DNA from: an uncultured bacterium
GTDB taxonomy: Bacteria; Verrucomicrobiota; Kiritimatiellia; RFP12; UBA1067
Direction of reading: 5' to 3'
NCBI GenBank assembly: GCA_902775595.1
Contig: CACYNF010000016.1
Coordinates: 1 to 35,923 of the forward strand
Length of the DNA: 35,923 nt
A program made the position numbers and the translations under genes. Positions 9,691 through 24,615 of the stretch are shown here, one piece after another (position 1 is the first letter of the stretch; every line of letters begins with the position of its first letter). The notes under the pieces were generated by a model. The model was given only the letters and a program-made list of their open reading frames with translations. It did not search any database and was not told the origin of the DNA.

Positions 9691-10400
9691 TTTACCTCCT
9701 TACTTGTATCGACGTTTCTTGCAAACTTCGGATTCGACCCCGCGATCACGAGAGCGACCTCGCCCTTGACCTTGGCGTCCTTGAACTCGTTGACGAGATC
9801 GGAAAGATAGCCGCGACTGACGCGCTCGTGCATCTTCGTAAGCTCGATGCACACCGCCGCCTCGCGGTCGCCAAGCGCGTCAAGCGCGGCGGCGAGCGTC
9901 GCGCCCACGCGGAACGGAGACTCGTAGCATATCAGCGTGTGCTCCTTGTCAGCATCTTCTGCGAACCAGTTGCGGAGCGCGCCGGGCCCTCGCGGCGGAA
10001 AGCCGCGGAATGTGAACGACGAAGTCGAAAGTCCCGACATCAAAAGCGCGACCTCGACCGCGCTCGCGCCGGGAACGACTTCGTAGGGGATCCCTGCCTT
10101 GGCGCAGGCGCGGATAAGCCGGTAGCCGGGATCGGAAATGCCGGGGTATCCGCCGTCCGAGCAGAGCGCGACGTCCTTGCCCTCCGCGAGAAGAGACAGC
10201 ACCTTCTCGGTGACGCGCTCCTCGTTGCCTTGCCTGTACGAGAACATCTCCGCGGGGCGCGGTATCTCGAAGTGCGTCAGGAGCTGCCATGTGCGCCGCG
10301 TGTCCTCGCAGGCGATCGCGGCCGCGCCCCTAAGCGCGGCGAGAGCGCGCGGCGAGAGGTCGGCGAGATTTCCGATCGGTGTTGCGACGACGTGGAGCAT
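9687..10400 (-). CDS. rsmI: 16S rRNA (cytidine-1402-2'-O)-methyltransferase RsmI
   Basis: RsmI methylates the ribose of C1402 in 16S rRNA, near the ribosomal P site, using S-adenosylmethionine. The 237-aa protein begins with the family's start VVATPIGNLADLSPRAL. It carries CEDTRRT (residues about 31-37), SDGGYPGISDPGY in place of the usual SDAGTPGISDPG, VVPGASAV, and the late FRGFPPRG and YESPFR motifs. It is somewhat shorter than E. coli RsmI (286 aa) because the extra C-terminal region is absent. The start lies 3 bases after the mscS-like stop with a poor ribosome-binding site, so translation probably depends on coupling. The stop overlaps the first SPFH gene. Confidence 0.95.
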   Translation of the reverse strand: MLHVVATPIGNLADLSPRALAALRGAAAIACEDTRRTWQLLTHFEIPRPAEMFSYRQGNEERVTEKVLSLLAEGKDVALCSDGGYPGISDPGYRLIRACAKAGIPYEVVPGASAVEVALLMSGLSTSSFTFRGFPPRGPGALRNWFAEDADKEHTLICYESPFRVGATLAAALDALGDREAAVCIELTKMHERVSRGYLSDLVNEFKDAKVKGEVALVIAGSNPKFARNVDTSKEVK

Positions 10401-10403
10401 GTC

Positions 10404-11291
10404 TTATTTCGCGGAAGCCGTGTGGACTTCGATCTGCGGGAACGGGATCTTGATGCCGGCCTTTTCAAGCGCAGACTTGACTTCGGTGAGCGTAGCCGCC
10501 GCAACAGGCCAGTAGTCGGCGCTCTTCGCCCATGGGCGGACGTTGATCTGCACGGCGCTGTCGTTGAGCGACGCAACGGCGACGGCGGGCGCAGGATCCT
10601 GGAGAACGCCCGGCACGTGGGCTATGGCCTCGCGAATCACATCGACCGCACGCGTGACATCCTCGCCGTAGTCGATGCCCACCTGGAGGTCGACGCGCCT
10701 CAGGCCAAGCGCGTTGTAGTTGACGATGGGCCCGCCCCAGACGCTCTTGTTGGGAAGGACGATGCGCTTGTTGTCGGCGGTCTTCATGACGGTCGCCATC
10801 ATGTTGACCTCGAGGATAACGCCGGAGTGTCCCGCGGCGTCAACGACATCGCCGACCTTGAACGGTTCGTTAAGGGCGATCATCATGCCGGAGGCGAGGT
10901 TGCCGAGCGATTCCTGGAACGCGAAGCCGAGGATGAAGCCGGTGACGCCGAGCCCGGCGATGAGAGGCGTGACGTTTACGCCGAGGCGGCCGAGCACCAT
11001 CACGATCAGCACCGCCCAGCAGGCCTTCGTGACGACGGAGCAGATGAAGTCGGCAAGCAGGCGTCCCTTGGCCTTGCCGCGCATCAGCGTCTTGCGAACG
11101 GTGAAGGCGATCAGCTTTATGGCAAGCCAGCCGACGAGCAGTATAACAAGCGCGAACACGAGGTTCATCGCGAAGTCGAGTCCCTTTTCCGTGAGCCAGG
11201 AAGTAACCTGCGCGGCTGTCTCCCTGCCTTCGCTGAACTGGGCTCCAATGGCGCCAGTCACCTTTTCCACCACAGTCGTTTCGTTAGTCAT
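10404..11291 (-). CDS. mscS: MscS-family small-conductance mechanosensitive channel
   Basis: A 295-aa inner-membrane channel that releases solutes on hypo-osmotic shock. Three transmembrane helices lie at about residues 40-62, 80-102 and 105-130. The pore helix and following loop read VTPLIAGLGVTGFILGFAF then SLGNLASGMMI, the characteristic Gly/Ala-rich TM3 of MscS. A beta domain (EPFKVGDVV) and the C-terminal alpha/beta domain ending in AGIKIPFPQ follow. Length matches E. coli MscS (286 aa). ATG 11291 has a good AAAGGA site. It is the second gene after the promoter at 12840, 25 bases downstream of the DUF4091 gene. Confidence 0.92.
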   Translation of the reverse strand: MTNETTVVEKVTGAIGAQFSEGRETAAQVTSWLTEKGLDFAMNLVFALVILLVGWLAIKLIAFTVRKTLMRGKAKGRLLADFICSVVTKACWAVLIVMVLGRLGVNVTPLIAGLGVTGFILGFAFQESLGNLASGMMIALNEPFKVGDVVDAAGHSGVILEVNMMATVMKTADNKRIVLPNKSVWGGPIVNYNALGLRRVDLQVGIDYGEDVTRAVDVIREAIAHVPGVLQDPAPAVAVASLNDSAVQINVRPWAKSADYWPVAAATLTEVKSALEKAGIKIPFPQIEVHTASAK

Positions 11292-12884: not shown

Positions 12885-15278
12885 TCAGAGGTCGCCTTCG
12901 ACGGGGCGATTCCCAGCTGGGGCGGGTGGCGTCTGTGGCGCTGGCGGCGCGAGAAGCTGCGCAGTCTCGACGAGACGGATGAATTCGGCGCGATAGCCCT
13001 CGAGGTCTTCGCCCTTCGCATGGCGCGCACGGTCAAGAATCTTGTCGAAGGACGCACTGCCCTTGAACTTCGAGTCGGACGCGAGAAGCGCGAATTCTGC
13101 GACAGCAGACGCGAAGCGGAAGCCTTCCGACGGCGTCTTCGAAGTGATCTGCGCTTCGGAAATCGGAATCTCCTTGAGCATGCTCGTGTCGCCGTCCGGC
13201 TTCTTCCAGCGGAGCTTTACGGTGCAGACCTCGCCACGCCCGGACTCCGTGCGCTTCTGATACTTGAGAGGATCGACGTCCGCAATCTTCTCATCAGAAC
13301 CTGCGGGGACGATCTCGTAGAACGCCGTCATCGTATGGCCGGAGCCAATCTCGCCCGCGTCCTTCTTGTCGTCGTTGAAGTCTTTCGCGGCAAGCTTTCT
13401 GCTCTCGTATCCAAGCAGACGATAGCCCTTCACCTCCGCAGGGTTGAACTCGAGCTGGAGCTTAACGTCCTTCGCGACGGTGAAAAGCGTTCCGCCAAAC
13501 TCGTTCATCATCACTTTCTTCGCCTCTAAGACCGAATCGAGATACGCGTAGTTTCCGTTGCCCGCAGTCGAAAGCTTCTTCATGTTCGCGTCCTGGTAGT
13601 TGCCGCGTCCGACGCCAAGCACCGTGAGGAAAATTCCGCTCTCGCGCTTCTCGGCGATGAAGTCCTCAAGCGCCTTCGGCGTCGAGATTCCGACGTTGAA
13701 GTCTCCGTCCGTCACGAGTATCACGCGGTTGTTCGCCTTCCTGTCGAAGCCCTTCTTCGCCTCCTCGTAGGCGAGCTGGATCCCCGCGCCGCCCGCAGTT
13801 CCGCCGCCGGAGACCAGCCCGTCAATCGCGGCGCGTATCCGCTCCTTCTCCGCCCCTGGCGTCGACCCGAGCAGCACACGCGTCCCGTTCGCGTACGTGA
13901 CGATCGCCACGCGGTCCTCCGGACGGAGCTTGTCGACCAGCATCTTGAGCCCGGCCTTCGCCATCTCGAATCCGCCGTTCCATCCCATCGAGCCAGAGAC
14001 ATCGACAAGAAACGTCAGGTTGCACGGCGGCAGCTTCTCGACAGGAACTTCCCGCGCCTGCACGCCGACCCTGAGAAGCTTGTGCGTTGGCGCCCACGGG
14101 CAGACGCCCATCTCGCACGCGATGGCGATCGGATCGTCGCCATTCGGCTGCGGATAGCGGTACTTGAAGTAGTTAATCCACTCCTCGAGTCGCACCGACT
14201 CCCTCGGCGGCATGCGCTTCATCTCGGTGATATAGCGCCGCATCGTCGTGTAGCTGGAAGTATCGACGTCGAGTCCGAATGTCGAGAGCGGCTCGCTCGT
14301 GGGATCGCGATATTCGTTCTCCTGAATCTCCGCATAGCGCTCGGAGCCGACGGGCTGTTGCTCCGCCAGTCTCTCAGGAGAAAAGCGCCGCAGGCGCTCG
14401 GACGAAGCAATCTCACGCCTCATCGACCCAATGGAGCCAGGAGTACGCGAGCCGGTCAAAGTCTTCATCGTCACTGGCGCGCTTATGGTCATGATCGTGT
14501 CCTTCGACTTAGCTCCAACGGAAAGCGATGGAGGGGGCGGTGGAATCGTTGTCCCCGCCGGTATTAGCGCTTCCTTGCGTTGTCCGGCGACAAGATCTTT
14601 CGCAAAGTCTATTTCCGCATCAGGTTCGGGCTCACATTCGCAAGGCAGATACTCTTCAGTGGCTGCCTCATCAACATTGGCAATATAGCAACAGAGTCGA
14701 GGACCAGTGTCGTTCTGCGAGTTTAACACATACACGGAAACGCCAAGTAAGACAACAAAGCATGCGGCAAGTCCGCAGACCCTGCGCCAAGAGACATGCA
14801 CGACGCGAGGGATGCACTTGTCGACGAGCGGAATGAAGTCTCCGCCCGAGACGAGGAACTCGCGCTCGTATTCCGCGACGATTCCGTCTGCGGCAAGTTC
14901 GGTCCGCGCGGCACATCTGCCGCGGATTTCTGCGAGCACGTCGGCGTCTATCTCGCCGACGCGCCAGCTGCGCGCGACGAAACTGCGCGCTGCCGTGCAG
15001 GCGTTCCATAGCTGGTAGACCCTCTCGCCTTCGAGCGCCTCGCGCGGCGAGGCGGGGACGGTGAACGGCGAGACGGGAATTATGAAGAACCCGGCATTCC
15101 CGCGATCCTCCGCGACAAGCCCGACGAACGGACGCGCCATGTCGGCGAAGATCCTTATTTCGCCAACCTTCACCGGCGAATCGAATTCCGCGTCGCCGCG
15201 CGGCGCCTCGCCCGCGAATGACGGACGCTTCCCGCCCGCCTTGTAGAGATTCCATTCCTGCTCGAATGTCTTGTTCAT
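12885..15278 (-). CDS. Membrane-anchored von Willebrand factor A protein, YfbK type
   Basis: A 797-aa protein. Residues 1-160 are predicted cytoplasmic. One transmembrane helix lies at about 164-183 (VCGLAACFVVLLGVSVYVL). A low-complexity periplasmic linker is followed by the YfbK N-terminal segment (FGLDVDTSSYTTMRRYI, about residues 330-350). The vWA domain has a MIDAS motif DVSGSMG near residue 429, a conserved Thr region (SGGGTAGGAG) and TDGDFNVG. The C-terminal YfbK-associated domain follows. The Pro-rich end is typical of exported proteins. The start overlaps the upstream sigma-like gene's stop (ATGA), with AGGAGGTG before the ATG. The cytoplasmic N-terminus of a protein encoded directly after a sigma-like gene could act as an anti-sigma factor; this is inference. 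A metal-dependent adhesion or scaffold role is known for vWA domains. Confidence 0.85.
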   Translation of the reverse strand: MNKTFEQEWNLYKAGGKRPSFAGEAPRGDAEFDSPVKVGEIRIFADMARPFVGLVAEDRGNAGFFIIPVSPFTVPASPREALEGERVYQLWNACTAARSFVARSWRVGEIDADVLAEIRGRCAARTELAADGIVAEYEREFLVSGGDFIPLVDKCIPRVVHVSWRRVCGLAACFVVLLGVSVYVLNSQNDTGPRLCCYIANVDEAATEEYLPCECEPEPDAEIDFAKDLVAGQRKEALIPAGTTIPPPPPSLSVGAKSKDTIMTISAPVTMKTLTGSRTPGSIGSMRREIASSERLRRFSPERLAEQQPVGSERYAEIQENEYRDPTSEPLSTFGLDVDTSSYTTMRRYITEMKRMPPRESVRLEEWINYFKYRYPQPNGDDPIAIACEMGVCPWAPTHKLLRVGVQAREVPVEKLPPCNLTFLVDVSGSMGWNGGFEMAKAGLKMLVDKLRPEDRVAIVTYANGTRVLLGSTPGAEKERIRAAIDGLVSGGGTAGGAGIQLAYEEAKKGFDRKANNRVILVTDGDFNVGISTPKALEDFIAEKRESGIFLTVLGVGRGNYQDANMKKLSTAGNGNYAYLDSVLEAKKVMMNEFGGTLFTVAKDVKLQLEFNPAEVKGYRLLGYESRKLAAKDFNDDKKDAGEIGSGHTMTAFYEIVPAGSDEKIADVDPLKYQKRTESGRGEVCTVKLRWKKPDGDTSMLKEIPISEAQITSKTPSEGFRFASAVAEFALLASDSKFKGSASFDKILDRARHAKGEDLEGYRAEFIRLVETAQLLAPPAPQTPPAPAGNRPVEGDL

Positions 15279-16099
15279 AGTGCACCTCCTGTCCGCTCGC
15301 GCAGCGACTTGGGTGCCGACGATTCACAGGCCGCGAGAAGCAGGCGACCGAAGAGCGGGCTATCCGCGCTCTCCATCGTCTTCGCCTCTTTCCTGAACTC
15401 GTCCATCGTCTTCTCCCTCATCGCGTACGCACGCGACTTTCCTACGCCTAGGCCCTCGAGGAGCACCGCATCCGTCAGCGGCATGTCCTGGGCCGTCGCA
15501 TACAAAAGGGCCGCGACATGCGACTTTTCCACTTTTATCTTGAGGGAGATTCTTTCGAGGAGCGCGTCGATCTCGCGGCGCATCGGTTCGAGGTCGAGAA
15601 GCGCGGCGGGGTCTTTCTGTGAATATGGTTCGAGCGCGGCGATTTCGGCTGGGCCTGCGCTTTCCCATTCGATGTGGCGGTAGCCGTCGGGGCCCTTCAC
15701 CTTGCGCGGACGCCAACCCTTGATAGAGGTAATCCAGTCAAGGACGATATCGTGGACGCGTCCTGCGCCTGAGCCGAAGAGAGTGCCGCAGACAAAGTCG
15801 GCGAGGCGCAGCCCCTCGGCCTTGATGCGGTAGGCGAAATAGGACTTGAGCGGCTTCTTCGTTTCGCGCGAGCCCTTCAGCTTGAAGTAGGCGTCAAAAA
15901 CGGCTACGGGATCATCCGCCCCCGCCTCCTCGCGCGAGACGCCGCGCTTCAAGAGAGTGGAATACATCGCGGACTCCACCTGGCGGCGGAGCGCGGCGGA
16001 ATGCTCGGCCGGGCATCCGCCCACCGAGCAGATGTCGAACCAGTCCTGCCACGCCTCGTCTCCGGCGTAGCGGTCAGGCGTCAAAGTGTTATCGTTCAT
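15275..16099 (-). CDS. Putative sigma-70-like regulator paired with the vWA protein
   Basis: A 274-aa soluble protein with weak resemblance to ECF/sigma-70 factors. Residues about 80-125 (KKPLKSYFAYRIKAEGLRLADFV) could be a region-2 helix. Residues about 205-245, ending GVGKSRAYAMREKTMDEF, resemble a region-4 helix-turn-helix. The -10 recognition residues are not obvious, so it could also be a DNA-binding protein derived from a sigma factor. ATG 16099 was chosen because GGAGGTACC lies directly before it; a longer frame from 16144 has no such site. It overlaps the DUF4186 remnant upstream and the vWA gene downstream, each by ATGA. Sigma-like genes next to YfbK-type vWA genes are a known context, which raises confidence modestly. 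Confidence 0.55.
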   Translation of the reverse strand: MNDNTLTPDRYAGDEAWQDWFDICSVGGCPAEHSAALRRQVESAMYSTLLKRGVSREEAGADDPVAVFDAYFKLKGSRETKKPLKSYFAYRIKAEGLRLADFVCGTLFGSGAGRVHDIVLDWITSIKGWRPRKVKGPDGYRHIEWESAGPAEIAALEPYSQKDPAALLDLEPMRREIDALLERISLKIKVEKSHVAALLYATAQDMPLTDAVLLEGLGVGKSRAYAMREKTMDEFRKEAKTMESADSPLFGRLLLAACESSAPKSLRERTGGAL

Positions 16100-16275
16100 C
16101 GGTACCTCCAACTCATAAAGGGACGCCGCCATGAACTTTTCCACACTCGGCGGATCGTCTCCATGCCCTTCTCGGCGATGTATTGCCGGTCGTCGGCAGA
16201 GAGATGAAAGCGCGAGCGGAACTTCGACTTTGCGAGCCGCCTAAATGCATTCTCCCTTCCTGCCAGAGTCGTCAT
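16096..16275 (-). pseudogene. Truncated DUF4186 gene remnant
   Basis: A 59-residue frame from ATG 16275 to a TGA that overlaps the sigma-like start. Residues 12-43 (RRLAKSKFRSRFHLSADDRQ, then YIAEKGMETIRR) resemble the beginning of DUF4186 proteins, which run to about 120 aa and carry a later conserved Cys/His-rich part. After TIRR the similarity stops and the rest is Trp/Arg-rich (VWKSSWRRPFMSW). This looks like a fusion of the domain's first third to unrelated sequence. No strong ribosome-binding site precedes the ATG. It may survive as a short leader ORF coupled to the sigma-like gene. The family match is from memory of the family, not from a search. Confidence 0.45.
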
Positions 16276-16294
16276 AAGGGCATCAATCCGCCAA

Positions 16295-16378
16295 TCAGAC
16301 GACGACTTTTCCCGACTGTTCCAGCGCCCGCGCCAGCTGGTCGGGGCAGGAAGTTCCAGTAGTCTTGAATGTAGTCAT
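16295..16378 (-). CDS. Possible 27-residue ORF
   Basis: ATG 16378 is preceded by a strong AAAGGAGGAACAA ribosome-binding site and opens a 27-codon frame (MTTFKTTGTSC, then PDQLARALEQSGKVVV) ending at 16295. I do not recognise it. It may be the broken start of the gene whose remnant follows at 16275, because the reading changes frame between them. The 15-mer containing this Shine-Dalgarno recurs in the fic gene linker (23774-23788). Confidence 0.35.
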   Translation of the reverse strand: MTTFKTTGTSCPDQLARALEQSGKVVV

Positions 16379-16402
16379 TTGTTCCTCCTTTTTCTTACCA
16401 CT

Positions 16403-16457
16403 GACGGGACATCCGAGACGGACGGGACATCCAGGACAACCAGGACCTCCGGGACTT
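16403..16457. repeat. Degenerate decamer array downstream of the four-helix gene
   Basis: Read on the + strand this stretch consists of variants of (G)ACGGGACATCC: GACGGGACATCC at 16403-16414, GACGGGACATCC at 16421-16432, then AGGACAACC and AGGACCTCC variants. It lies just beyond the 3' end of the four-helix-bundle gene. Its 13-mer GACGGACGGGACA (16417-16429) is the exact reverse complement of 13-mers in the array on the gene's other side. Confidence 0.75.
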
Positions 16458-16484
16458 GGTTGCCATGGTTGGCCCCCTCCCCTG

Positions 16485-17174
16485 TCATTTCCAGCCCTTC
16501 CGTTTCTTGATGCTCCAGACCGCCTGATCGACCTTGCGCTTGATCTCGGCAGCTCTGGACTCTAGCTCCATCACATCTGCGGCGGCGTCGAGGCGAGAAT
16601 ACGCGCCCTTGTCCCATTCTTCGCCACGAGCGGCTGTGCGAGCGGCGTGCATCCGCTCGCGAACCCCGCCATGCCTCTTGAAGTCTTCCTCCTGCGCGGC
16701 AATCATCTTGTCGAGCATATAGCGCGTCTGATGGCAGATGGTGAGCATCAGATTCGCCACCGTTTCCGCCGGACGCGTCTCGAAGAACTTCTGCCAATCA
16801 GGCCAGTCAGAATGCGCCTTGGAATAGTCGCGCGCGGCAATGCGCCGCTCGTCGTCGGACGGCCACTCTGCGAAACCATGCGACTTGAGCCAGTCAAGGT
16901 AGTCCTCAATCAGCTCGTCAAGCGTGGCGCGGGCGACATTGGTGAGCTTGATTTCCGTTTCCTTGCTCGTGCCGCTCGCCGCGCTCCCCTCAGCGATGTT
17001 CTGCTTGCAACTGCGTGCGGCTTGCGTCATCTGGTCAACGGTGCGATCACCGTGAGCTGAAAGGAATCGGCGACAAAACACGACAGTGCCCTGGTAGATC
17101 ACATCGCTCTTGCGATAGACAATGAGCTTCTTGTACCCGCCATGCGGCAACACAATCTTTGGAATATCAGCCAT
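16485..17174 (-). CDS. Four-helix-bundle protein (S23/IVP-like, suffix-domain type)
   Basis: A 229-aa protein. Residues 10-105 show the S23/IVP-like pattern: YQGTVVFCRRFL, then DQMTQAARSCKQNIAEG and KLTNVARATLDELIEDY. Proteins of this family include those encoded inside 23S rRNA intervening sequences and the Avd accessory proteins of diversity-generating retroelements. A second helical part (about residues 120-229) corresponds to the four-helix-bundle suffix domain and ends in a Lys-rich tail (SIKKRKGWK). Basic helices suggest nucleic-acid binding. ATG 17174 begins the conserved segment; a longer frame to 17213 is less likely. A promoter lies at 17364, giving a leader of about 175 bases filled with decamer repeats. 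No reverse transcriptase or rRNA is adjacent, so function is open. Confidence 0.8.
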   Translation of the reverse strand: MADIPKIVLPHGGYKKLIVYRKSDVIYQGTVVFCRRFLSAHGDRTVDQMTQAARSCKQNIAEGSAASGTSKETEIKLTNVARATLDELIEDYLDWLKSHGFAEWPSDDERRIAARDYSKAHSDWPDWQKFFETRPAETVANLMLTICHQTRYMLDKMIAAQEEDFKRHGGVRERMHAARTAARGEEWDKGAYSRLDAAADVMELESRAAEIKRKVDQAVWSIKKRKGWK

Positions 17175-17249
17175 GGACCCGCGTTCCTTTCCACGGCAGT
17201 TCCCGTTGCACAATAAGTCTCGGTTGTCCCGCTTGCCGCGCCGACTTGT

Positions 17250-17279
17250 CCGCCAAAGCGAAAGCTTTAGCGCAGGCGG
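17250..17279. repeat. REP-like palindrome in the four-helix gene leader
   Basis: The stretch starts CCGCCAAAGC and ends AGGCGG. Outer arms CCGCC/GGCGG and inner arms AAAGC/GCTTT can fold into a hairpin with a few unpaired bases. It lies between the decamer array and the ATG at 17174, in the transcribed leader. Confidence 0.6.
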
Positions 17280-17280
17280 G

Positions 17281-17331
17281 TCCCGTCCGTCCTACTTGTC
17301 CCGTCCGTCCCGTTTGTCCCGTCCGTCCTGT
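17281..17331. repeat. Degenerate decamer array upstream of the four-helix gene
   Basis: On the + strand the stretch is made of TCCCGTCCGT, CCCGTCCGTC and TTGTCCCGTCC variants. TGTCCCGTCCGTC occurs at 17297-17309 and again at 17315-17327. These are exact reverse complements of the 13-mer at 16417-16429 on the far side of the gene, so the two arrays could pair in a transcript. Confidence 0.75.
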
Positions 17332-17341
17332 TTGTTCTCCC

Positions 17342-17400
17342 AGGTTCATCGACATATTATACCATTCTTTTCACTTCCCGAATCGACAGACCGATGCCCA
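17342..17400. repeat. Duplicated promoter/gene-tail segment, copy A
   Basis: By eye, 47 of 59 bases match 17955-18013. On the - strand both copies contain TTCGGGAAG(C/T)GAAA followed by AATGGTATAATATG. In copy B the sequence is the end of a real gene (protein tail ...REAKEMV). Copy A keeps a similar readable tail (GIGLSIREVKRMV) but has no gene body, so it looks like a remnant of a duplicated gene end carrying its promoter. Confidence 0.7.
17356..17364 (-). promoter_or_regulatory. Extended -10 promoter of the four-helix gene
   Basis: TGGTATAAT reads from 17364 to 17356 on the - strand. Transcription would start near 17349 and pass through the decamer array and palindrome before the ATG at 17174. 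Confidence 0.65.
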
Positions 17401-17437
17401 ACGAAAGCCCGCGCCCGCGCCGTAGGGTTTGCCGCCA

Positions 17438-17923
17438 TCATTCCATCCCTTCGCGAAGGTATGTGTGAACATTCTCCTTGTTCGTACAGATGATCCTACC
17501 GTCCACGAAATCAATACCGTAGTGTTCCAACGATTCTTCGGCGTACCGAAAGAGTGCGTCAGCTCGCCATGCATACCACTCCTCGGCTATTCCAAGGTTA
17601 TTGACCGCGTCTTTAAACCTCCTGAATGGATGCTTCTCCGACAACACATCACAGAGCCGTTGCGACTGCCCGCCTGGGCGAGACAATGCGAACCGCTCCA
17701 TGATGGAATGGCTTTCGTGCGAGTCCAACGGCTCAATGGAAACCACTTCGTGTCCATGCAGCCAGTCGTTCACATCTGGGTCGCTATAGGCCGAATCCAT
17801 CACGGTGGCAACTATCTGGTCGGTCAAGTCAACCACGGGATAACTCTGATCGAAGCAGCTATCAAATTCGTCTGCCAGTTCCTTTATCAACTGCTCCTTT
17901 GATGTTATCTTTTCACCGAACAT
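17438..17923 (-). CDS. UPF0158 family protein
   Basis: A 161-aa acidic soluble protein. The C-terminal half carries the family pattern: SEKHPFRRFKDAVNNLG followed by EWYAWRADALFRYAEESLEHYGID. Aromatic and acidic residues are conserved, and no catalytic site is known. The N-terminal half holds DQIVATVMDSAYSDPDVNDW, which resembles the usual start of these proteins. UPF0158 has no established function. ATG 17923 has AGGAG 7 bases upstream and a promoter at 17977. The gene is a single-gene unit between the membrane protein gene and the four-helix gene. About 70 bases of remnant sequence follow its stop. Confidence 0.75.
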   Translation of the reverse strand: MFGEKITSKEQLIKELADEFDSCFDQSYPVVDLTDQIVATVMDSAYSDPDVNDWLHGHEVVSIEPLDSHESHSIMERFALSRPGGQSQRLCDVLSEKHPFRRFKDAVNNLGIAEEWYAWRADALFRYAEESLEHYGIDFVDGRIICTNKENVHTYLREGME

Positions 17924-17954
17924 GGGTATTCTCCTCTATGGGTCTCTGGCGCTC

Positions 17955-18013
17955 AAGTTCACAGTCATATTATACCATTTCTTTCGCTTCCCGAACCGCC
18001 AGGCCCACGCCCA
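17955..18013. repeat. Duplicated promoter/gene-tail segment, copy B
   Basis: The second copy of the segment at 17342-17400. It spans the final codons of the membrane protein gene, its TAA stop, the TGGTATAAT element and the first transcribed bases. The part from AAGTTCACAG to ATTATACCATT (+ strand) recurs with two mismatches at 24593-24617 in front of the fic gene. Confidence 0.7.
17969..17977 (-). promoter_or_regulatory. Extended -10 promoter of the UPF0158 gene
   Basis: TGGTATAAT reads from 17977 to 17969 on the - strand. The TAA stop codon of the upstream gene (17972-17970) lies inside the hexamer. The predicted start point is near 17962, about 40 bases before the ATG at 17923. Confidence 0.65.
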
Positions 18014-18554
18014 GCGACGCAATGCCCAGAACACCTGCAGGGATTGTACTAAATGCCGATGCGTAGATGGTAGAGTAAAGCGTATACAACCAAATCGCAA
18101 GAACGGATTCAGGATCGTCCACCTGTCGCAATTCAGAATCAAAAGAGGCAAAGGCGGACAAAATCAATCCGACATCTGGATTGGGCTGACGTACAGCAAC
18201 CATGCTTATCCCCGCAACAATATTCCATTTCACAAGAAAGGCGTTGTCACTCGCCGTCAACCGCCGCCCGGTATCAACGATCCGCAAGTTCAGCGACACG
18301 GCAAGCGCACCAACATGAATCATCCGCTGTTCGCGCACATCCTGCGACACATTCGGCTCAAGGCAATCAAAAACAGCAAAACAAAAATCCTCCACATCCC
18401 GAAGCATTTCCGTCTGGCAGCGCACGCAATTAGCAACCGCAAAATCGCGCAACCTTGTCCATAAGGCTTGCGGATCATTACGCTTCGCCTCAATTTCTGC
18501 ACAGATATTCTGTAACATAGGCAGTATCCATTTCAAAGAGTGAGAGTTATTCAC
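17970..18554 (-). CDS. Small membrane protein of unknown function
   Basis: Not recognised. The 194-aa protein has a soluble N-terminal part with several Cys residues (NICAE, NCVRCQTEML, DFCFAVFDCLE). It has a strongly hydrophobic C-terminal stretch (about residues 150-187), long enough for one or two transmembrane helices. The protein ends ...VREAKEMV. The GTG at 18554 is the longest start, but its ribosome-binding site is weak, so an internal start is possible. It lies 22 bases after the repeat-protein gene and is probably co-transcribed with it. Its stop codon is part of the next promoter. Base composition is closer to the AT-rich island than to the flanks. Confidence 0.55.
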   Translation of the reverse strand: MNNSHSLKWILPMLQNICAEIEAKRNDPQALWTRLRDFAVANCVRCQTEMLRDVEDFCFAVFDCLEPNVSQDVREQRMIHVGALAVSLNLRIVDTGRRLTASDNAFLVKWNIVAGISMVAVRQPNPDVGLILSAFASFDSELRQVDDPESVLAIWLYTLYSTIYASAFSTIPAGVLGIASLGVGLAVREAKEMV

Positions 18555-18576
18555 ACAGCCATTAAATCAATAACAG

Positions 18577-21552
18577 TTAATCTCGAAACTCAATGATATC
18601 GGAAGAATCAACACCTCCACCATACATATCATTCCATCCCGATTCTTCTCGCCAATCTGGATAATCATCATACCAATCATCATCAACATTTCTATTTCGA
18701 TTAGTTTCTCTTCTAACAAATTCCTGCGCCATATCAACGATGGTTGACACCGGATACTTTGAATACTTGTGCGACGAACGCGACTTATACTTTCCTGCAA
18801 ATTGCTCCTGTCTACCTATCAATAGCATCCAATTCTTTTCAGACATTCCATCCCAGCCATTACATGCGTCACATTTTGCCGCAAATTGAGGCTGCTTTGA
18901 CAATAGCACTTGCCAATCCAGACCATTAAATATCGACCAACCATTATAAGCGGCACACTGCTTTTCAAATTGCGGGCAGCAAGCCAAAAGTTTCGCCCAC
19001 CCTATGTTATCCCACTCATGCTCACGCGCACCAAATAACGTCCACCCACTGTGCTCGTCGCAGAATGTTATCAATTTGCTTTCATATTCTTTCCCTGGTT
19101 CTTGACTCTGACCTCTGGACACCAGTGTCCTAAACATGGATATCCAGCTGTTAGCATCAACATCATCCCAATTAATATAGCGATGACAATACTCCATCAG
19201 ATTCGGATTCCTTTCCACCAGCTGGCGCAGCTCATCATCCGAAAATTTACTCCATCCGCCATGCCGCTCACAAATATCAGCGAATTGTGGCGCACACAGA
19301 AGGCAATTCTTCCAAAAATTTGAATCTAAGGAAATTGAAGTTTTCTCAAGAAATTTCCAATGAGGATGCAATAACCGCTCCCAATCTTTGGCATTGAATC
19401 GTTTCCACTCATTACCAGACATATGGGACGCCCATTCGGGTCGATGTCTGATAAGATACGACCACGCATGGCACCTTATATATATTTCATCACTTCCAGA
19501 ATATTCATAATAGCCCGTCAAATTATCAAGGAATCTTGGCCAAGCAGCGATCACCGCATCCCAGAAAGAATCAAACCAAACGTCAGGGCAATCGCCATAA
19601 TCATAATCAAAAAACGTCGCGACTTCATTGACAAAGTCCGTCCCTTTCCCAAGTGCAATCTTCCAGTCGTCTTCCGTAAAAGTCTTCCATACATCAGCTA
19701 CATTGTAAGTCGATGCATTAAGAAATGCATCAATTCCTCCTTTTCGGAATTGTTGGCGGAATGCATATATCCAGAAGCGCTTATCTAACGCGCAAAGTAT
19801 TTGAGCTGCCTCATTATCGCTGATATCTTTCACCCAGCAAAACAAATCCATTCCTGTAGCGCATTCTCCTGCAGAACAGTATTTTTCTCGATTAAATGTA
19901 TCATACGGCACATCGCTATATGACATATGTTCATACTCACTATAATTTACTACTTCATCCCATTCTTCCTCACTATACTTATATTCTTTTGGGCAGAAAT
20001 CAAACATCAATTTCCAACCATTCAAGGAATCGCATTTACGCACAAACATTGGCTGAGCAGACAAAAGACGATACCAGTCGAAGCCATCAAATGTGCTCCA
20101 TCCGTCTACCGCATCACATTTCTCCGCAAACTTGGGTTGTATTTCGAGCAACGCCGCCCAACATACGCAAGGAGAATCTTTCCCCTCCCTCGTCCTATTT
20201 TCTCCTGTAAGAAATTTCTTCCAGCCGTTAAAGCTGTCACATCGTTCGGCAAACTGCGGTTGCATCCGCAATAACTCAGTCCAATCAAACGCATCAAAAC
20301 ACTCCCACATATTATATTCGTCACACTTACTCGCAAGAATCGGCGCATCTTTAAGGACAAATATCCAATCGCGATTAGACAGCAAGTTCCATCCATTTAC
20401 TGTATCGCATTTCTTGTAAAAACATGGTTGCTTGGCCAAGAGAATTCGCCAATCATATTTTGTAAACTTACCCCATCCATTATGCCTGTCACATCTGTCA
20501 GAAAATTCAGGATGGGTTATGAGAATATCACACCACAAACACTCTGCGTCGTCATATTGATTGACATGCTCACAAAAGTCTTTCCATCCATCAACAGAAT
20601 CACATCGATCTGCAAGTTTGGGATTCATACTAAGCAGTCTGCTCCAGTCATACCCATCAAATGATCCCCATCCGTCGCATTTATCACAAAAATCCACAAA
20701 TTGAGGGTGTGCAATAATTAATTCATTCCAATCATCTCCAGAAAGGTTCTTCCACCCATTATTCCGATAACAACTCTCGCAAAATGACGGTTGGACGATT
20801 AACAATTTACCCCAATCACACCCACTGAATCTTTTCCAACCATTGCATTTATCGCATCTGTCAGCCATATCGGATTGTACCGACAAGAGCGCGCTCCAAT
20901 CAACCCCATCAATCTTTTCCCACCCTTCGTACTTATCACAACGATTAATAAAGTCTGGGCACTTAGACAGCAGTGTTGCCCAATCAGCTCCTTCTAACAA
21001 CTTCCATCCTTCGTACTTATCACAATAGTGAATTATACACTGGTGCGCAATCAATATGTTCACCCAATCAGCACCTTTCGCTCTAACACTAAAGAGAAAA
21101 ATGATATCCTCACTCTCTTTAAGTGTAATATTGGGCACGCTCTCGACAGGCAGCTTTTTCCGCTCAGATAGAGGGAGCGCATTTATCTTGTCACGGAAAG
21201 ACAACCATTGTTTAATTTTTTCTGAAAGATTGTTGTGATGCCAATGTCTTGACTTTTCGTATCTATCTGAAAACCTTGGCTGGCTTCTTAATAGATCGGC
21301 CCATTCAGAGGTATTGAACCCATGCCAGCCGTGCCAGTAACTGCATGCATTTTCATATGAAGGCTTATCTTTCAGCAGACAAACCCAATCAGAAGACGAA
21401 AACAACTTCCACGCTTTGGTCAAATCACACTTCGCTTCAAACACGCTATCGCTCTTCAGCAATGTCACCCAGTCTTTGGCGCTCAGCTCTTTCCATCCGG
21501 TTACCTTATCGAGAATCTTTATCATTATCCTACATACTTCATTACTACTCAT
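18577..21552 (-). CDS. Large protein of 28-residue DW/CD tandem repeats
   Basis: A 991-aa protein with no signal peptide or transmembrane helix. It is built of about two dozen 28-residue repeats with the consensus GWxxFxGxDWxxLLxxQPxFAxxCDxxx. Regular examples are GWKLLEGADWATLLSKCPDF and GWSIFNGLDWQVLLSKQPQF. The Trp, Leu-Leu, Pro and Cys-Asp positions are the most constant. Residues 1-85 and about 165-500 are regular; 500-650 are degenerate, and repeats return to about residue 925. The end is very acidic and Trp/Asp/Tyr-rich. The pattern suggests an alpha-solenoid-like scaffold. I can assign no function, though similar repeat proteins occur in Verrucomicrobia/Lentisphaerae-type genomes. GGAGGTG precedes ATG 21552, which overlaps the 40-aa ORF (ATGA). 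The DNA is markedly AT-rich, suggesting transfer. Confidence 0.85.
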   Translation of the reverse strand: MSSNEVCRIMIKILDKVTGWKELSAKDWVTLLKSDSVFEAKCDLTKAWKLFSSSDWVCLLKDKPSYENACSYWHGWHGFNTSEWADLLRSQPRFSDRYEKSRHWHHNNLSEKIKQWLSFRDKINALPLSERKKLPVESVPNITLKESEDIIFLFSVRAKGADWVNILIAHQCIIHYCDKYEGWKLLEGADWATLLSKCPDFINRCDKYEGWEKIDGVDWSALLSVQSDMADRCDKCNGWKRFSGCDWGKLLIVQPSFCESCYRNNGWKNLSGDDWNELIIAHPQFVDFCDKCDGWGSFDGYDWSRLLSMNPKLADRCDSVDGWKDFCEHVNQYDDAECLWCDILITHPEFSDRCDRHNGWGKFTKYDWRILLAKQPCFYKKCDTVNGWNLLSNRDWIFVLKDAPILASKCDEYNMWECFDAFDWTELLRMQPQFAERCDSFNGWKKFLTGENRTREGKDSPCVCWAALLEIQPKFAEKCDAVDGWSTFDGFDWYRLLSAQPMFVRKCDSLNGWKLMFDFCPKEYKYSEEEWDEVVNYSEYEHMSYSDVPYDTFNREKYCSAGECATGMDLFCWVKDISDNEAAQILCALDKRFWIYAFRQQFRKGGIDAFLNASTYNVADVWKTFTEDDWKIALGKGTDFVNEVATFFDYDYGDCPDVWFDSFWDAVIAAWPRFLDNLTGYYEYSGSDEIYIRCHAWSYLIRHRPEWASHMSGNEWKRFNAKDWERLLHPHWKFLEKTSISLDSNFWKNCLLCAPQFADICERHGGWSKFSDDELRQLVERNPNLMEYCHRYINWDDVDANSWISMFRTLVSRGQSQEPGKEYESKLITFCDEHSGWTLFGAREHEWDNIGWAKLLACCPQFEKQCAAYNGWSIFNGLDWQVLLSKQPQFAAKCDACNGWDGMSEKNWMLLIGRQEQFAGKYKSRSSHKYSKYPVSTIVDMAQEFVRRETNRNRNVDDDWYDDYPDWREESGWNDMYGGGVDSSDIIEFRD

Positions 21553-21671
21553 CTTGACACCTCCCCAATAAAAGCACGACCTTCAATCAAATTGCAAACA
21601 AACCGACAGCATTCGTCAGACTTATCAACGCATACAATAATCGTCATGTCATTGGTATTATGATCAATCAT
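21549..21671 (-). CDS. 40-residue ORF coupled to the repeat-protein gene
   Basis: A 40-aa peptide beginning MIDHNTNDMTIIVCVDKSD, with the Cys-rich stretch ECCRFVCNL. ATG 21671 has a strong AAAGGAG site with 7-base spacing, and it overlaps the end of the RapZ-C-like gene. Its TGA overlaps the ATG of the 991-aa gene. Overlaps on both sides plus a good ribosome-binding site support translation, perhaps as a coupling leader. No family was recognised. Confidence 0.5.
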   Translation of the reverse strand: MIDHNTNDMTIIVCVDKSDECCRFVCNLIEGRAFIGEVSR

Positions 21672-22014
21672 AAATGCTCTCCTTTGCTTTCCAAAACGCT
21701 TTCGCCGCGTGCTCCACCTCAATATCCACCCCTTCAATCCCCTTCAGCCGCTCGGACATGCGCTCGGCGAAGCACACGGAACGGTGCTGACGCGGCCCCT
21801 TGCGGCCCCTTCGGGGTTCGCGCTTCGCGCTCAGGCAACCCGACCGCTTCGCGGCGGGCGCATTTCCCGTGCAGCCGAAGGCGACTTGAAGGTGGTCGCG
21901 GCCGGTGTTCAATTTTGCCAATGTGGAAATGCTGCCAGTTCCAATGTTGCCAATTGCCATTTTCTCCTCCGGCAACCCGCGCTTGTACGAGAAGGATGTG
22001 ATGGTGACGATCAT
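21664..22014 (-). pseudogene. RapZ C-terminal-domain-like gene, internally rearranged
   Basis: A 116-aa frame. Residues 1-16 (MIVTITSFSYKRGLPEE) and the segments LQVAFGCTG (42-50) and QHRSVCFAERMSERLKG (76-92) match the start and the GCTGGQHRSV-type core of the RapZ C-terminal domain. RapZ binds the small RNA GlmZ and glucosamine-6-phosphate in E. coli. The expected segment between the first two motifs (about 55 residues in the family) is replaced by a short low-complexity Ile/Gly/Thr/Ser stretch. A 24-residue basic insertion (51-74) encoded by palindromes splits the core motif. The frame is intact and has GGAGG 9 bases before ATG 22014, so it may still be translated, but RNA-binding function is doubtful. 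It starts 1 base after the AlbA_2 gene. Confidence 0.6.
21806..21854. repeat. Cluster of palindromes inserted in the RapZ-C-like frame
   Basis: Three short hairpins with TTC loops follow each other: CCCCTTCGGGG (21806-21816), GCGCTTCGCGC (21820-21830) and CCGCTTCGCGG (21844-21854). A further GGGTT (21814-21818) / AACCC (21837-21841) stem can enclose the middle one. The cluster falls between the codons for GCTG and QHRSV, i.e. inside a conserved motif, and keeps the frame. Confidence 0.75.
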
Positions 22015-22015
22015 A

Positions 22016-23359
22016 TCAAACGACCTCCCAATGCCCACTATAACCATGTCCTACGTACCTGATATTCTGGAGTTTTGCAATATGACGCTTGACCGTAACC
22101 ACGGAGCACTTCAATCGTTCAGCCAAGACTTTCACTGTTACCTTGGGATCCGCCGCTATCCATTCAACCAGCATCAAATCCACATTGCGTTTTTGCGCTT
22201 TGGCATCACCTTGAGTATCACCTTGAGTATCACCTTGAGTATCACTCCTTGCTACATTGCCATTCAGATTTGGCAACGTCACGACAAAGCAGCCGACAGC
22301 GGAATAGAACTTCGGAGCAAGACCAAGAGGATTGTGTGAGACATCTGGCGCGTACGCTCCGATGATCTTCTTGAACCCGCTTCCCTCGCGCTCCATGTAG
22401 TCGAGGCGGTCGAAGACGTCGGCAAGAATGCCGTTTCGCCTGTCGGAAGGAACGTTCATCACGTCGAGGTCCTGCACGAGCGATCCGTCAGGCATTCCGC
22501 CGGGCGACATGATCTCCATTCTGTCGTCGAATATGTCCACATGGACTTCGCTCCCAGAGATCGTGTAGTCGCGGTGGATGAAGGCGTTCACAAGCGACTC
22601 CGTAACGGCACGTTCAGGATAGTCCGGGTAGTTGTCACGCTCCGTAGGACGCTTCACCCAGCCCTTGTTCGTCTGCACTTTTATGAAGTTCTCCGCCATG
22701 TCAAGAAGTTCAAGGATGTTGCCTTGCTCCTTGCGGCTCGCCGTCGAATCAGCCGCCTTGTCTTTTCCCAGCCAGCGCGTGCAGAACAGGCGCGACTGGG
22801 GAATAGGACAATCATCAGCCAGCAACGCCCCGGCGTTTGTGAGTATGCCGCATTTCGTAATAAGACCATACGACACCAAATCCGCGTTCTTGACCTCCTT
22901 GTGGACTCGTTGCTCAAACCTGTACTTCAGCCTCTTAAACGTGAACTTCCGCGAAGACAGGCGATTGACGGTCTCCGCGCCGTCCCACGAAAGATGCATC
23001 TTGTGGAAAAGGAATTGCGTCAGCGCGAAGCCCGTCAACTGTTGCTTCGTGGATCCTGTGCGGTAGTGATATTCGCCGCGATAGGCGACAGGGAAATCGC
23101 TCTCGCGCACGACAATCTGAATGACATCCTTCTTCTGTCTCTTCACCAGAGAGACATCTGCAACTATTCCCATTGTATCGCGTATCTTGTTCGGGATGTC
23201 TTCAAGCAGTTTCTTTGCGTTTGCCACACCGACGGGCTTGCCCGCATCATCAATGCCGATCAGCAGCTTCCCGCCTTTCGCGTTCGCGAAACCGCAAATC
23301 CATTTAAGGTACTCGTCGTGCCACGACAGCTTGAATTCGGTGTTTTGCGATTCTTTCAC
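22016..23359 (-). CDS. AlbA_2/Schlafen-like ATP-binding transcriptional regulator
   Basis: A 447-aa protein of the COG2865 type. The N-terminal AlbA_2 domain starts ESQNTEFKLSWHDEYLKWIC, with FANAKGGKLLIGIDDAG (about residues 24-42) and the YRTGSTKQQL segment. The middle part has the GHKL-like ATPase pattern RAVTESLVNAFIHRDY, VDIFDDRMEIMSPGGMP and YMEREGSGFKKI. A Thr-Gln-Gly-Asp linker leads to a C-terminal winged helix (about residues 395-447) ending SGHWEVV. GTG 23359 is chosen because GGAGG lies 6 bases upstream. These proteins occur in accessory and defence-type islands; the ligand is unknown. It is the first gene of the operon that continues with the RapZ-C-like gene and the repeat protein; its promoter is at 23394. 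Confidence 0.85.
   Translation of the reverse strand: MKESQNTEFKLSWHDEYLKWICGFANAKGGKLLIGIDDAGKPVGVANAKKLLEDIPNKIRDTMGIVADVSLVKRQKKDVIQIVVRESDFPVAYRGEYHYRTGSTKQQLTGFALTQFLFHKMHLSWDGAETVNRLSSRKFTFKRLKYRFEQRVHKEVKNADLVSYGLITKCGILTNAGALLADDCPIPQSRLFCTRWLGKDKAADSTASRKEQGNILELLDMAENFIKVQTNKGWVKRPTERDNYPDYPERAVTESLVNAFIHRDYTISGSEVHVDIFDDRMEIMSPGGMPDGSLVQDLDVMNVPSDRRNGILADVFDRLDYMEREGSGFKKIIGAYAPDVSHNPLGLAPKFYSAVGCFVVTLPNLNGNVARSDTQGDTQGDTQGDAKAQKRNVDLMLVEWIAADPKVTVKVLAERLKCSVVTVKRHIAKLQNIRYVGHGYSGHWEVV
22205..22246. repeat. 12-base minisatellite encoding TQGD
   Basis: ATCACCTTGAGT (+ strand) is repeated at 22205-22216, 22217-22228 and 22229-22240, followed by a partial copy. It encodes a TQGD repeat in the linker between the ATPase part and the winged helix of the AlbA_2 protein. 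The unit is a multiple of three, so copy-number changes keep the frame. Confidence 0.9.
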
Positions 23360-23564: not shown

Positions 23565-24563
23565 TCACGCCTTTTCAATTACCTCCCAATGCCCGCCCTT
23601 GTCTGGACCGACGCGGCGAAGGCGCTGCGCGTCCTTGAGCCGTTCGATATGCTTCTGAATCGCGCTACGGGAAATGCCTGTCGCGGAAGACATTTCTGCA
23701 AAGGTGATTTTCGGATTGCCGCGGATCAACTCCAATAGCCGATCGGCGGTTTTCTTACCACCTTTTCTTACCACCTTTTTCTTACCACCTTGCGACTCGC
23801 CTCTAGCCTTCAACGTCCGAAGAATCATGTCGAGCATGAAATCTACGAAGACGCGGGCATCGCCCAACTCCTGGGCGGCATGAAGCGTCTGGTAGTATCT
23901 GCGCTGGTGGCAAAGCACCATGTTCTCTATCGGCAAGGCGTAGAAGAGCTGATTCCACCGGCCAAGTATCACTGTCTGCCAGAGTCTCCCCATCCTCCCG
24001 TTGCCGTCGGAGAACGGATGGATAGTCTCGAAGACAAAGTGGAATATGCAGCTCTTCACCAACGGAGCGTCCTTCGAACGCTTCAGCCAAGCGAAAAGAT
24101 CCTTCATCAAAAACGGAACCTGGTCCCACGGCGGCGCATGAAGCATCGCCACGCCACGGGCGTTGAAGACCCCGACATTGCATTTGCGCCACTTGCCAGG
24201 ACTTTCGACCAAGTCCTTCGTCATCAGCGCATGCGCCCGCAAAAGCGCCCGAGGCGACAACGGATCAAACGCTTCGACTTTTGAATATGCGGCATGCGCT
24301 CCCTTCACTTCATCAATTTCACGCTTCGAGCCGACGACCTGCTTGCCGGCGATGATATCCGTTACCTGGTCTTCTGTCAGCGTATTGCCCTCGATTGCCG
24401 TCGTGCCGCGAATCGTTCTGATATGGTTGAGCTTCCTGAGCCGCACACCCGCCGGCCCTTCCATGACGATGCGATAGCGCTCTATCGCGGCGGCGATGTC
24501 CATCACCAGCCGCAGAGTCCTTTCGCCCGGTGTAAACCGCACCAACTCGCCAACATCAACCAT
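23565..24563 (-). CDS. Fic-family protein with inhibitory motif and winged helix
   Basis: A 332-aa probable AMP-transferase (or related nucleotidyl-transferase). The Fic active-site loop HPFSDGNGRMGR is complete at residues 183-194, with catalytic His183. The N-terminal helix carries the inhibitory motif TTAIEGN (54-60), fitting the [S/T]xxxE[G/N] rule, so the enzyme should be self-inhibited through Glu58. A Lys/Gly-rich linker (about 258-272) encoded by tandem repeats leads to a winged helix (about 275-332) ending GGHWEVIEKA. This makes autoregulation of its own promoter plausible. GGAGGTGAAAT precedes ATG 24563, and the promoter lies at 24615. The target protein is unknown. Confidence 0.92.
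   Translation of the reverse strand: MVDVGELVRFTPGERTLRLVMDIAAAIERYRIVMEGPAGVRLRKLNHIRTIRGTTAIEGNTLTEDQVTDIIAGKQVVGSKREIDEVKGAHAAYSKVEAFDPLSPRALLRAHALMTKDLVESPGKWRKCNVGVFNARGVAMLHAPPWDQVPFLMKDLFAWLKRSKDAPLVKSCIFHFVFETIHPFSDGNGRMGRLWQTVILGRWNQLFYALPIENMVLCHQRRYYQTLHAAQELGDARVFVDFMLDMILRTLKARGESQGGKKKVVRKGGKKTADRLLELIRGNPKITFAEMSSATGISRSAIQKHIERLKDAQRLRRVGPDKGGHWEVIEKA
23751..23789. repeat. Tandem 12-14-base repeat in the fic linker
   Basis: Three consecutive copies of TTTTCTTACCACC (12-14 bases each, + strand) encode the Gly-Gly-Lys-Lys linker of the Fic protein. The 15-mer CCTTTTTCTTACCAC (23774-23788) recurs exactly at 16387-16401, before the 27-aa ORF. Confidence 0.8.
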
Positions 24564-24606
24564 ATTTCACCTCCACCGCTATTCCGCATCCAAAGTTCAC
24601 AGGCAC

Positions 24607-24615
24607 ATTATACCA
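24607..24615 (-). promoter_or_regulatory. Extended -10 promoter of fic
   Basis: TGGTATAAT reads from 24615 to 24607 on the - strand, 4 bases after the tsaD stop codon. The predicted start point is near 24600, giving a leader of about 37 bases before ATG 24563. The first transcribed bases (GTGCCTGTGAACTT) resemble those at 17969 and 34372. Confidence 0.65.

Follow-up and report, generated by a model that had tools for sequence, protein, structure and literature searches.

What does a bacterial protein do when it is built of a short repeat that matches no named family? This question is raised by a gene, here called the DW gene, of an uncultured bacterium of the Kiritimatiellia that lives in the gut, probably in the rumen. 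The window, meaning the whole stretch of 35,923 nucleotides that was analysed, is contig 16 (CACYNF010000016.1) of a 3.15-Mb genome in 203 contigs. A first-pass annotation had read the protein, from its letters alone, as about two dozen 28-residue repeats that suggest a solenoid with a metal or ligand edge, and the gene as possibly a transferred functional system. We followed up these readings by computation, and the features of the gene and its product are listed below.

18577..21552, minus strand: DW-repeat protein gene, 991 aa, ATG start
Residues 15-97, 149-316, 354-437, 479-506 and 866-921 of the protein: full DW units, the rest being degenerate
20188..21120, minus strand: residues 145-455, the stretch modelled by AlphaFold (mean pLDDT 93.6, pTM 0.84)
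18580..18735, minus strand: conserved 52-aa C-terminal tail ending in DWREESGWNDMYGGGVDSSDIIEFRD, which also ends an LRR_5 protein in another genome, G011

The DW repeat and its family

The open reading frame stands as first annotated, on the minus strand and with its ATG start, and it is directly preceded by a ribosome-binding-like sequence, GGGGAGGTG. Furthermore, an independent rumen MAG contig (CACZPB010000256.1) carries a 3,247-bp stretch with the DW gene that is identical to the window. The autocorrelation of the protein (BLOSUM62) has its maximum at lag 28, with a z of 18 over 200 shuffles, which confirms the 28-residue period. A profile built on 15 units of the window, with which relatives were first found in the same genus, matches 24 stretches of the protein, 22 of them above 3 bits. 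The count of two dozen thus agrees with the profile, but it includes fragments because residues ~517-830 are largely degenerate: starting from residue 15, there are about 15 full 28-residue units and about seven degenerate ones. Likewise, the DW, LL and CD positions had been called invariant, and in 14 aligned units this holds for the Trp at position 15 (14/14) but not for the preceding Asp (12/14), either Leu of the pair (12/14 each), the Cys at position 1 (13/14) or the Asp that follows this Cys (10/14). Cysteine makes up 4.6% of the protein.

The gene had also been described as AT-rich by eye, and the comparison with its flanks shows that it is: GC is 42% versus ~61-67% in most flanking genes, and GC3 is 41% versus ~75-88%, so that the third-position value drops from ~0.8 to 0.41 in the DW gene. 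The orthologue in a related genome, G050 (L015, 1082-3628), is 51% identical in its best segment.

Across the family the commoner unit has 24 residues, CDWSKLDGxDWxxLLxxQPQFADK, which we name the “DW repeat”, and the 28-residue unit of the window, CDxxxGWxxFxGxDWxxLLxxQPxFAxx, is a loop-extended form of it with four additional residues after CD; units of 24, 25 and 28 residues occur mixed within one protein. We found DW repeats in 50 of the 388 Verrucomicrobiota genomes drawn, a single genome having as many as 18 profile matches, and under a stricter cut in 21/78 and 11/36 genomes of single families; in the genus of the window, BLAST finds relatives in 9 of 61 genomes. Almost all relatives come from gut and rumen Verrucomicrobiota MAGs (Kiritimatiellae, Lentisphaeria and others), and the arrays are mostly stand-alone, of variable length, with 5 to 48 units.

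The earlier inability to link the repeat to a named domain holds after searches of Pfam, NCBIfam, PADLOC and PDB sequences, none of which gave a useful match for the protein or the repeat. Pfam yielded no named repeat family, and the window protein itself matched only GST_C_6, below threshold (13.3 bits, cut-off 28). Among the Pfam repeat families considered (TPR, HEAT, ARM, PPR, LRR, LRV, Sel1 and ankyrin), none passed its curated cut-off in the window protein or in four relatives (L017, L018, L019, L023). PHROGs returned a single weak, unnamed match to the repeat. In sequence searches of IMG/VR and of phage and plasmid collections the window protein had no relative; the 24-residue form likewise had no match in the phage and plasmid collections, and in IMG/VR it occurs on one contig, whose repeat ORF appears identical to that of a Puniceicoccaceae genome (L057). 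The string CDWSKL is absent from the literature searched. The DW repeat family therefore appears to be undescribed in the libraries and papers searchable here, while repeat sensors and scaffolds as such are already known from NLR-like and MoxR-centred conflict systems.

Solenoid model, packing core and variable face

Given residues 145-455 of the window protein together with 27 relatives, AlphaFold predicts a regular alpha-solenoid in which each unit consists of two helices and a short helical turn. The model is confident and bears out the solenoid proposed from the sequence. Foldseek found no significant match to it in the PDB (best E 0.22). VIA-align returned a mixed list of ARM, PPR and PUF structures with Z up to 10.1, a range common among helical repeats, so that these matches would mean only a similar arrangement, taken here as “alpha-solenoid”. 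In its two-helix units stacked as a superhelix the modelled DW array resembles ARM/HEAT, PPR, PUF and TPR arrays, but it differs from them in lacking a significant Foldseek match or a Pfam match and in its unit, which spans 24-28 residues and has a DW..LL..P core. LRV (leucine-rich variant) was considered as the identity of the repeat and is not claimed, as neither the structure comparison nor Pfam gave an LRV match.

Over 613 family units the conserved positions are W11, L14, L15, P19, F21 and A22, with W3 and G8 weaker. The conserved W, LL, P, F and A would form a hydrophobic packing core, which fits the model. The most variable positions of the 24-residue unit are 9, 12, 13, 16 and 17, whose spacing (i, i+3, i+4, i+7, i+8) places them on one face of the first helix. 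When similar units within one protein are compared, these five positions have a dN/dS of 0.83 (bootstrap 0.56-1.05), which does not clearly exceed 1, core positions one of 0.11 and the others one of 0.19; because the five positions were picked for their variability, the value of 0.83 indicates relaxed or diversifying change rather than proven positive selection.

The metal or ligand edge of Cys-Asp and Trp that the first-pass annotation had proposed fares poorly against this pattern. The Trp, Leu-Leu, Pro and Phe-Ala positions act core-like, and the Cys is kept in only ~50% of the 613 family units, one per unit and without ligand pairs, so a metal edge is unlikely. The ligand face is likely to be the variable face of the first helix instead.

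A conserved tail and partner in an exchanged island

The DW gene lies in an island. The genes of its locus, all on the minus strand, follow each other in the direction of transcription as TsaD, Fic-HTH, AlbA_2-HATPase-HTH, a decayed RapZ-C-like fragment, DW, a 194-aa partner, a 161-aa UPF0158-like protein and a 23S-IVP-like protein.

23565..24563, minus strand: Fic-HTH protein, PADLOC SoFic model, E 1e-44
22016..23359, minus strand: Schlafen AlbA_2 / HATPase_c_4 / HTH protein, 97% DNA identity to G049 and G050
18031..22260: exchanged core in the window, with unrelated genes in its place in G049
17970..18554, minus strand: 194-aa partner, 22 bp downstream of the DW gene, of no known family
17438..17923, minus strand: 161-aa protein with weak UPF0158 similarity below cut-off, at the island border, 93.5% DNA identity to G049
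16485..17213, minus strand: 23S-rRNA-IVP-like protein on the opposite island side, below the Pfam cut-off

The DW gene had been placed in an operon with a regulator. A candidate regulator exists, the AlbA_2/HATPase_c_4/HTH protein, but its gene lies ~460 bp upstream, and the 194-aa gene is the likelier operon partner. With PADLOC, no match was obtained for the DW protein, the 194-aa partner or the 161-aa gene, the Fic neighbour being the only strong match. No pair of a MoxR ATPase and a vWA or VWA-like protein was recognised among the scanned neighbours of the window DW gene, and no reverse transcriptase among the window ORFs scanned.

The partner is 83% identical in G050 and 81% identical in G099, and the order AlbA_2, DW, partner is kept in G050. 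Three genomes (G099, G108, G008) have the partner without the DW gene, and a search of IMG/VR found no relative of the partner. It is predicted to be all-alpha, at low confidence (pLDDT 58), with a hydrophobic C-terminus. The 52-residue tail of the DW protein recurs, also at the DNA level, in G011, where a 707-aa LRR_5 protein ends with it. Different solenoids therefore precede one tail, which a profile search of the genus finds in three proteins only. The LRR_5 island of G011 contains DUF4062-, ring-nuclease-, DUF2971- and DUF1848-like genes, names that were given by eye and have no profile matches behind them.

Exchange of the island is directly visible in G049, where the two sides are 93.5% and 96.7% identical to those of the window and 5.7 kb of other genes stand in place of the core. 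With its foreign composition (GC 42% against ~62%) and a core exchanged between 93-97% identical flanks, the island supports the earlier suggestion that the gene was transferred. Between the window and G050, synonymous divergence is 0.35 for the partner and for AlbA_2; within the DW gene it is 0.92 in the C-terminal third and reaches saturation in the N-terminal repeats. Because it climbs in this way from 0.35 to saturation, the repeats have been exchanged or shuffled and not merely mutated. In the same comparison dN/dS is 0.19 for the C-terminal third and 0.30 for the partner, which indicates purifying selection on both.

Several short elements mark this region. The IVP-like, 161-aa and Fic genes have a leader element in common, GGTATAATATGNCNNTGAACYTG, at 17341-17363, 17954-17976 and 24592-24614 (minus strand), for which 0 occurrences are expected by chance. 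At 17341-17363 and 17954-17976 the partner gene's 3′ end, or what is left of it, stands before the element; these 3′ ends (17338-17404 and 17951-18017) are 80% identical, and similar ones sit at junctions in G049, G099 and G050 (C19). Partner 3′ end and leader element together are perhaps a recombination junction. A decayed RapZ C-terminal-like fragment (PapZ_C, 1e-8) lies at 21664-22047 on the minus strand, interrupted by a palindromic sequence, and pieces of this fragment are scattered through the genus, in 48 of 59 genomes with up to 19 matches each. In the AlbA_2 protein (22176-22260, minus strand) identity with both G049 and G050 ends at one base, 22260, where the linker that leads to the C-terminal HTH contains a short GATACTCAAGGT repeat; with this shared break, the DNA-binding end of AlbA_2 therefore seems to have been swapped too.

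Fusions, neighbours and the probable role

We next consider what the relatives of the DW protein are joined to. In two of them the array follows immune-receptor domains: a 1233-aa protein (L042) has TIR_2 (6e-10), a weak DUF7779 match and an FVGR...GVGKTELS motif before DW units at 774-1229, and a 1039-aa protein (L039) has TIR_2 (4e-10) and NB-ARC (2e-4, slightly below cut-off) before DW units at 672-1031. A third (L055) has TIR_2 (2e-23) without an NTPase, followed by DW units at 188-436; TIR_2 is above cut-off in all three. Two more proteins (L038, L044) have, by eye, an NTPase-like part before the DW units that is apparently cut by contig ends, and neither has a Pfam match. A GHKL/DNA-gyrase-B-type match is N-terminal to the units in L046 (7565-9166), as is LRR_5 in L016. 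TIR or NTPase parts occur in only about five of 66 family proteins, most being stand-alone arrays without a recognised extra domain. The window protein belongs with the latter, and the Pfam scan found in it no TIR, NTPase (NB-ARC/NACHT) or other immune domain. Among other architectures, a 1725-aa protein (L144, 5904-11081) begins with zinc-ribbon-like CxxC motifs and has its DW units, about seven of them, at 1013-1435, and in L023 (6348-8147) the units are followed by an ankyrin-looking C-terminus, with a large LRR_5 gene 16 bp away.

DW genes also adjoin a recurrent set of genes, namely PD-(D/E)XK_4 nucleases (L036/L131, L134, L062, L066/L140), pairs of MoxR and the VWA-like DUF2201 (L034/L128, L070, L040) and LRR_5 genes (L018, L023, L044, L075, L146). 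Whole-genome searches of 15 DW genomes for two of these Pfam families placed 3 of 7 PF14281 nuclease genes (0.05 expected, P = 1.4e-5) and 4 of 17 PF13203 (DUF2201) genes (0.13 expected, P = 8e-6) within 5 kb of DW repeats. The linkage is strong, not rigorous, because the P values assume random gene placement and the genome list was slightly hand-picked (three DW genomes omitted and two more omitted from the count), and clustering in islands alone would produce part of the effect. PADLOC matched 126 models near DW genes and 40 in control regions, the counts being of models and not of proteins. The window genome itself (G000) has no PF14281 or PF13203 match, and its DW island contains no nuclease and no MoxR-DUF2201 pair. 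By eye, one further DW gene (L143 of G543, 9096-10775) lies near a caspase-like protease, a dynamin-like GTPase and a sigma factor (14382-18756).

These contexts resemble three known arrangements. LRR_5, a leucine-rich beta-alpha solenoid, is found here in the BspA type beside DW genes, N-terminal to DW units in one protein and with the same tail in G011, but the DW array differs in being all-helical. In NLR-like receptors a TIR or other effector is followed by a STAND/NB-ARC NTPase and a C-terminal repeat sensor, and it is this sensor position that the DW arrays hold in L042 and L039; here too the repeat region is variable and the remainder conserved. The window protein differs in being repeat-only, without TIR or NTPase, and its repeat is DW and not LRR, TPR or WD40. 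Finally, Kaur et al. 2020 (PMC7159879) report for MoxR-vWA ternary conflict systems that in ~70% of the vWA proteins the effector position is taken by scaffolding domains or by repeats that form superstructures (TPR, HEAT, pentapeptide, beta-propeller), a class that a helical DW array would fit. That study leaves DUF2201 unmentioned in its text, and DW repeats are absent from the repeat list of its section 16. The likeness lies in diversifying islands and in DW genes next to MoxR and DUF2201 (L034/L128, L070 and L040, as above), the difference in the window gene, which has no MoxR or vWA pair beside it.

Since relatives are fused to immune-receptor domains, the most likely role of the DW protein is to recognise or hold other proteins, as part of a swappable defence cassette that is probably directed against phages. 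We infer, with a probability of roughly 55%, that the window solenoid serves for recognition or as a scaffold within a polymorphic conflict module, most likely an anti-phage one, of which it is a subunit. Under this hypothesis, the protein would act as an intracellular alpha-solenoid in which the variable faces of successive first helices form a continuous target-binding surface, the target being for example a protein of a phage or a further component of the module. Binding would be relayed to an effector step by the C-terminal third and the tail, both conserved, and by the predicted all-helical 194-aa partner. The array would diversify as repeats are gained, lost and swapped, with tail, partner and flanks kept constant; the LRR or TPR domains that serve NLR-like receptors as sensors would be a parallel.

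A different role is that of a general protein-protein interaction scaffold with a regulatory or housekeeping function, borne on an island but outside defence. Most family members are indeed solenoids without effector domains, some contexts look ordinary (L141, L130), and alpha-solenoids such as ARM, HEAT and PPR have many roles. We nevertheless regard this as doubtful, given the sparse presence of the family in genus and phylum (9/61 and 50/388 genomes), the fast divergence of the repeats, the TIR/NTPase fusions and the nuclease and MoxR-DUF2201 linkage. It is less probable still that the two genes form a toxin-antitoxin-like or addiction pair in which the solenoid restrains a toxic partner. 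Their 22-bp spacing on one strand, their joint conservation in G050 and the hydrophobic C-terminus of the partner would suit such a pair, but a toxin that depends on its antitoxin is not expected in three genomes without the DW gene, and the partner model reaches a pLDDT of only 58.

The two remaining explanations concern the repeat itself, and both are very improbable. Arrays that vary from 5 to 48 units and diverge strongly could be those of a repeat gene that expands passively, has no selected function and is maintained by island recombination; against this stand the open frame, the dN/dS of 0.11 at core positions and 0.19 in the C-terminal third, and the conservation of tail and partner. 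The dN/dS values for C-terminal third and partner (0.19 and 0.30), together with the NLR-like fusions and the nuclease and MoxR-DUF2201 linkage, indirectly support the earlier view of a functional system over a passive gene. The least probable reading is a Cys-rich metal-binding solenoid, to which the high Cys and Asp counts in the window units (13/14 and 10/14) and the overall Cys content of 4.6% had pointed. In the family half of the units lack the Cys and the others have a single one, where zinc sites typically have pairs, and the conserved positions probably serve the hydrophobic packing seen in the model.

Beyond the subunit of a conflict module favoured for the window, a broader hypothesis, which we put forward as speculative, is that bacteria have in DW arrays a modular repertoire for recognition, one that gives gut Verrucomicrobiota an NLR-like, rapidly evolving immunity with a previously undescribed repeat. 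Every 24-28-residue unit would then offer a small helix face that varies, and arrays with 5 to 48 such units would be resized and swapped ahead of a conserved tail, a partner or a TIR/NTPase signalling domain. In one and the same slot, an LRR_5 array and a DW array would be able to replace each other.

The DW repeat is missing from the family libraries searched, yet it is present in about one eighth of the sampled Verrucomicrobiota genomes and is found joined to TIR and NTPase domains. Should it be a sensor repeat, bacterial NLR-like immunity would gain a recognition module so far overlooked, and the annotation of many “hypothetical” gut proteins could start; its regular helical scaffold would also lend itself to design, with a binding face that may be read from sequence.
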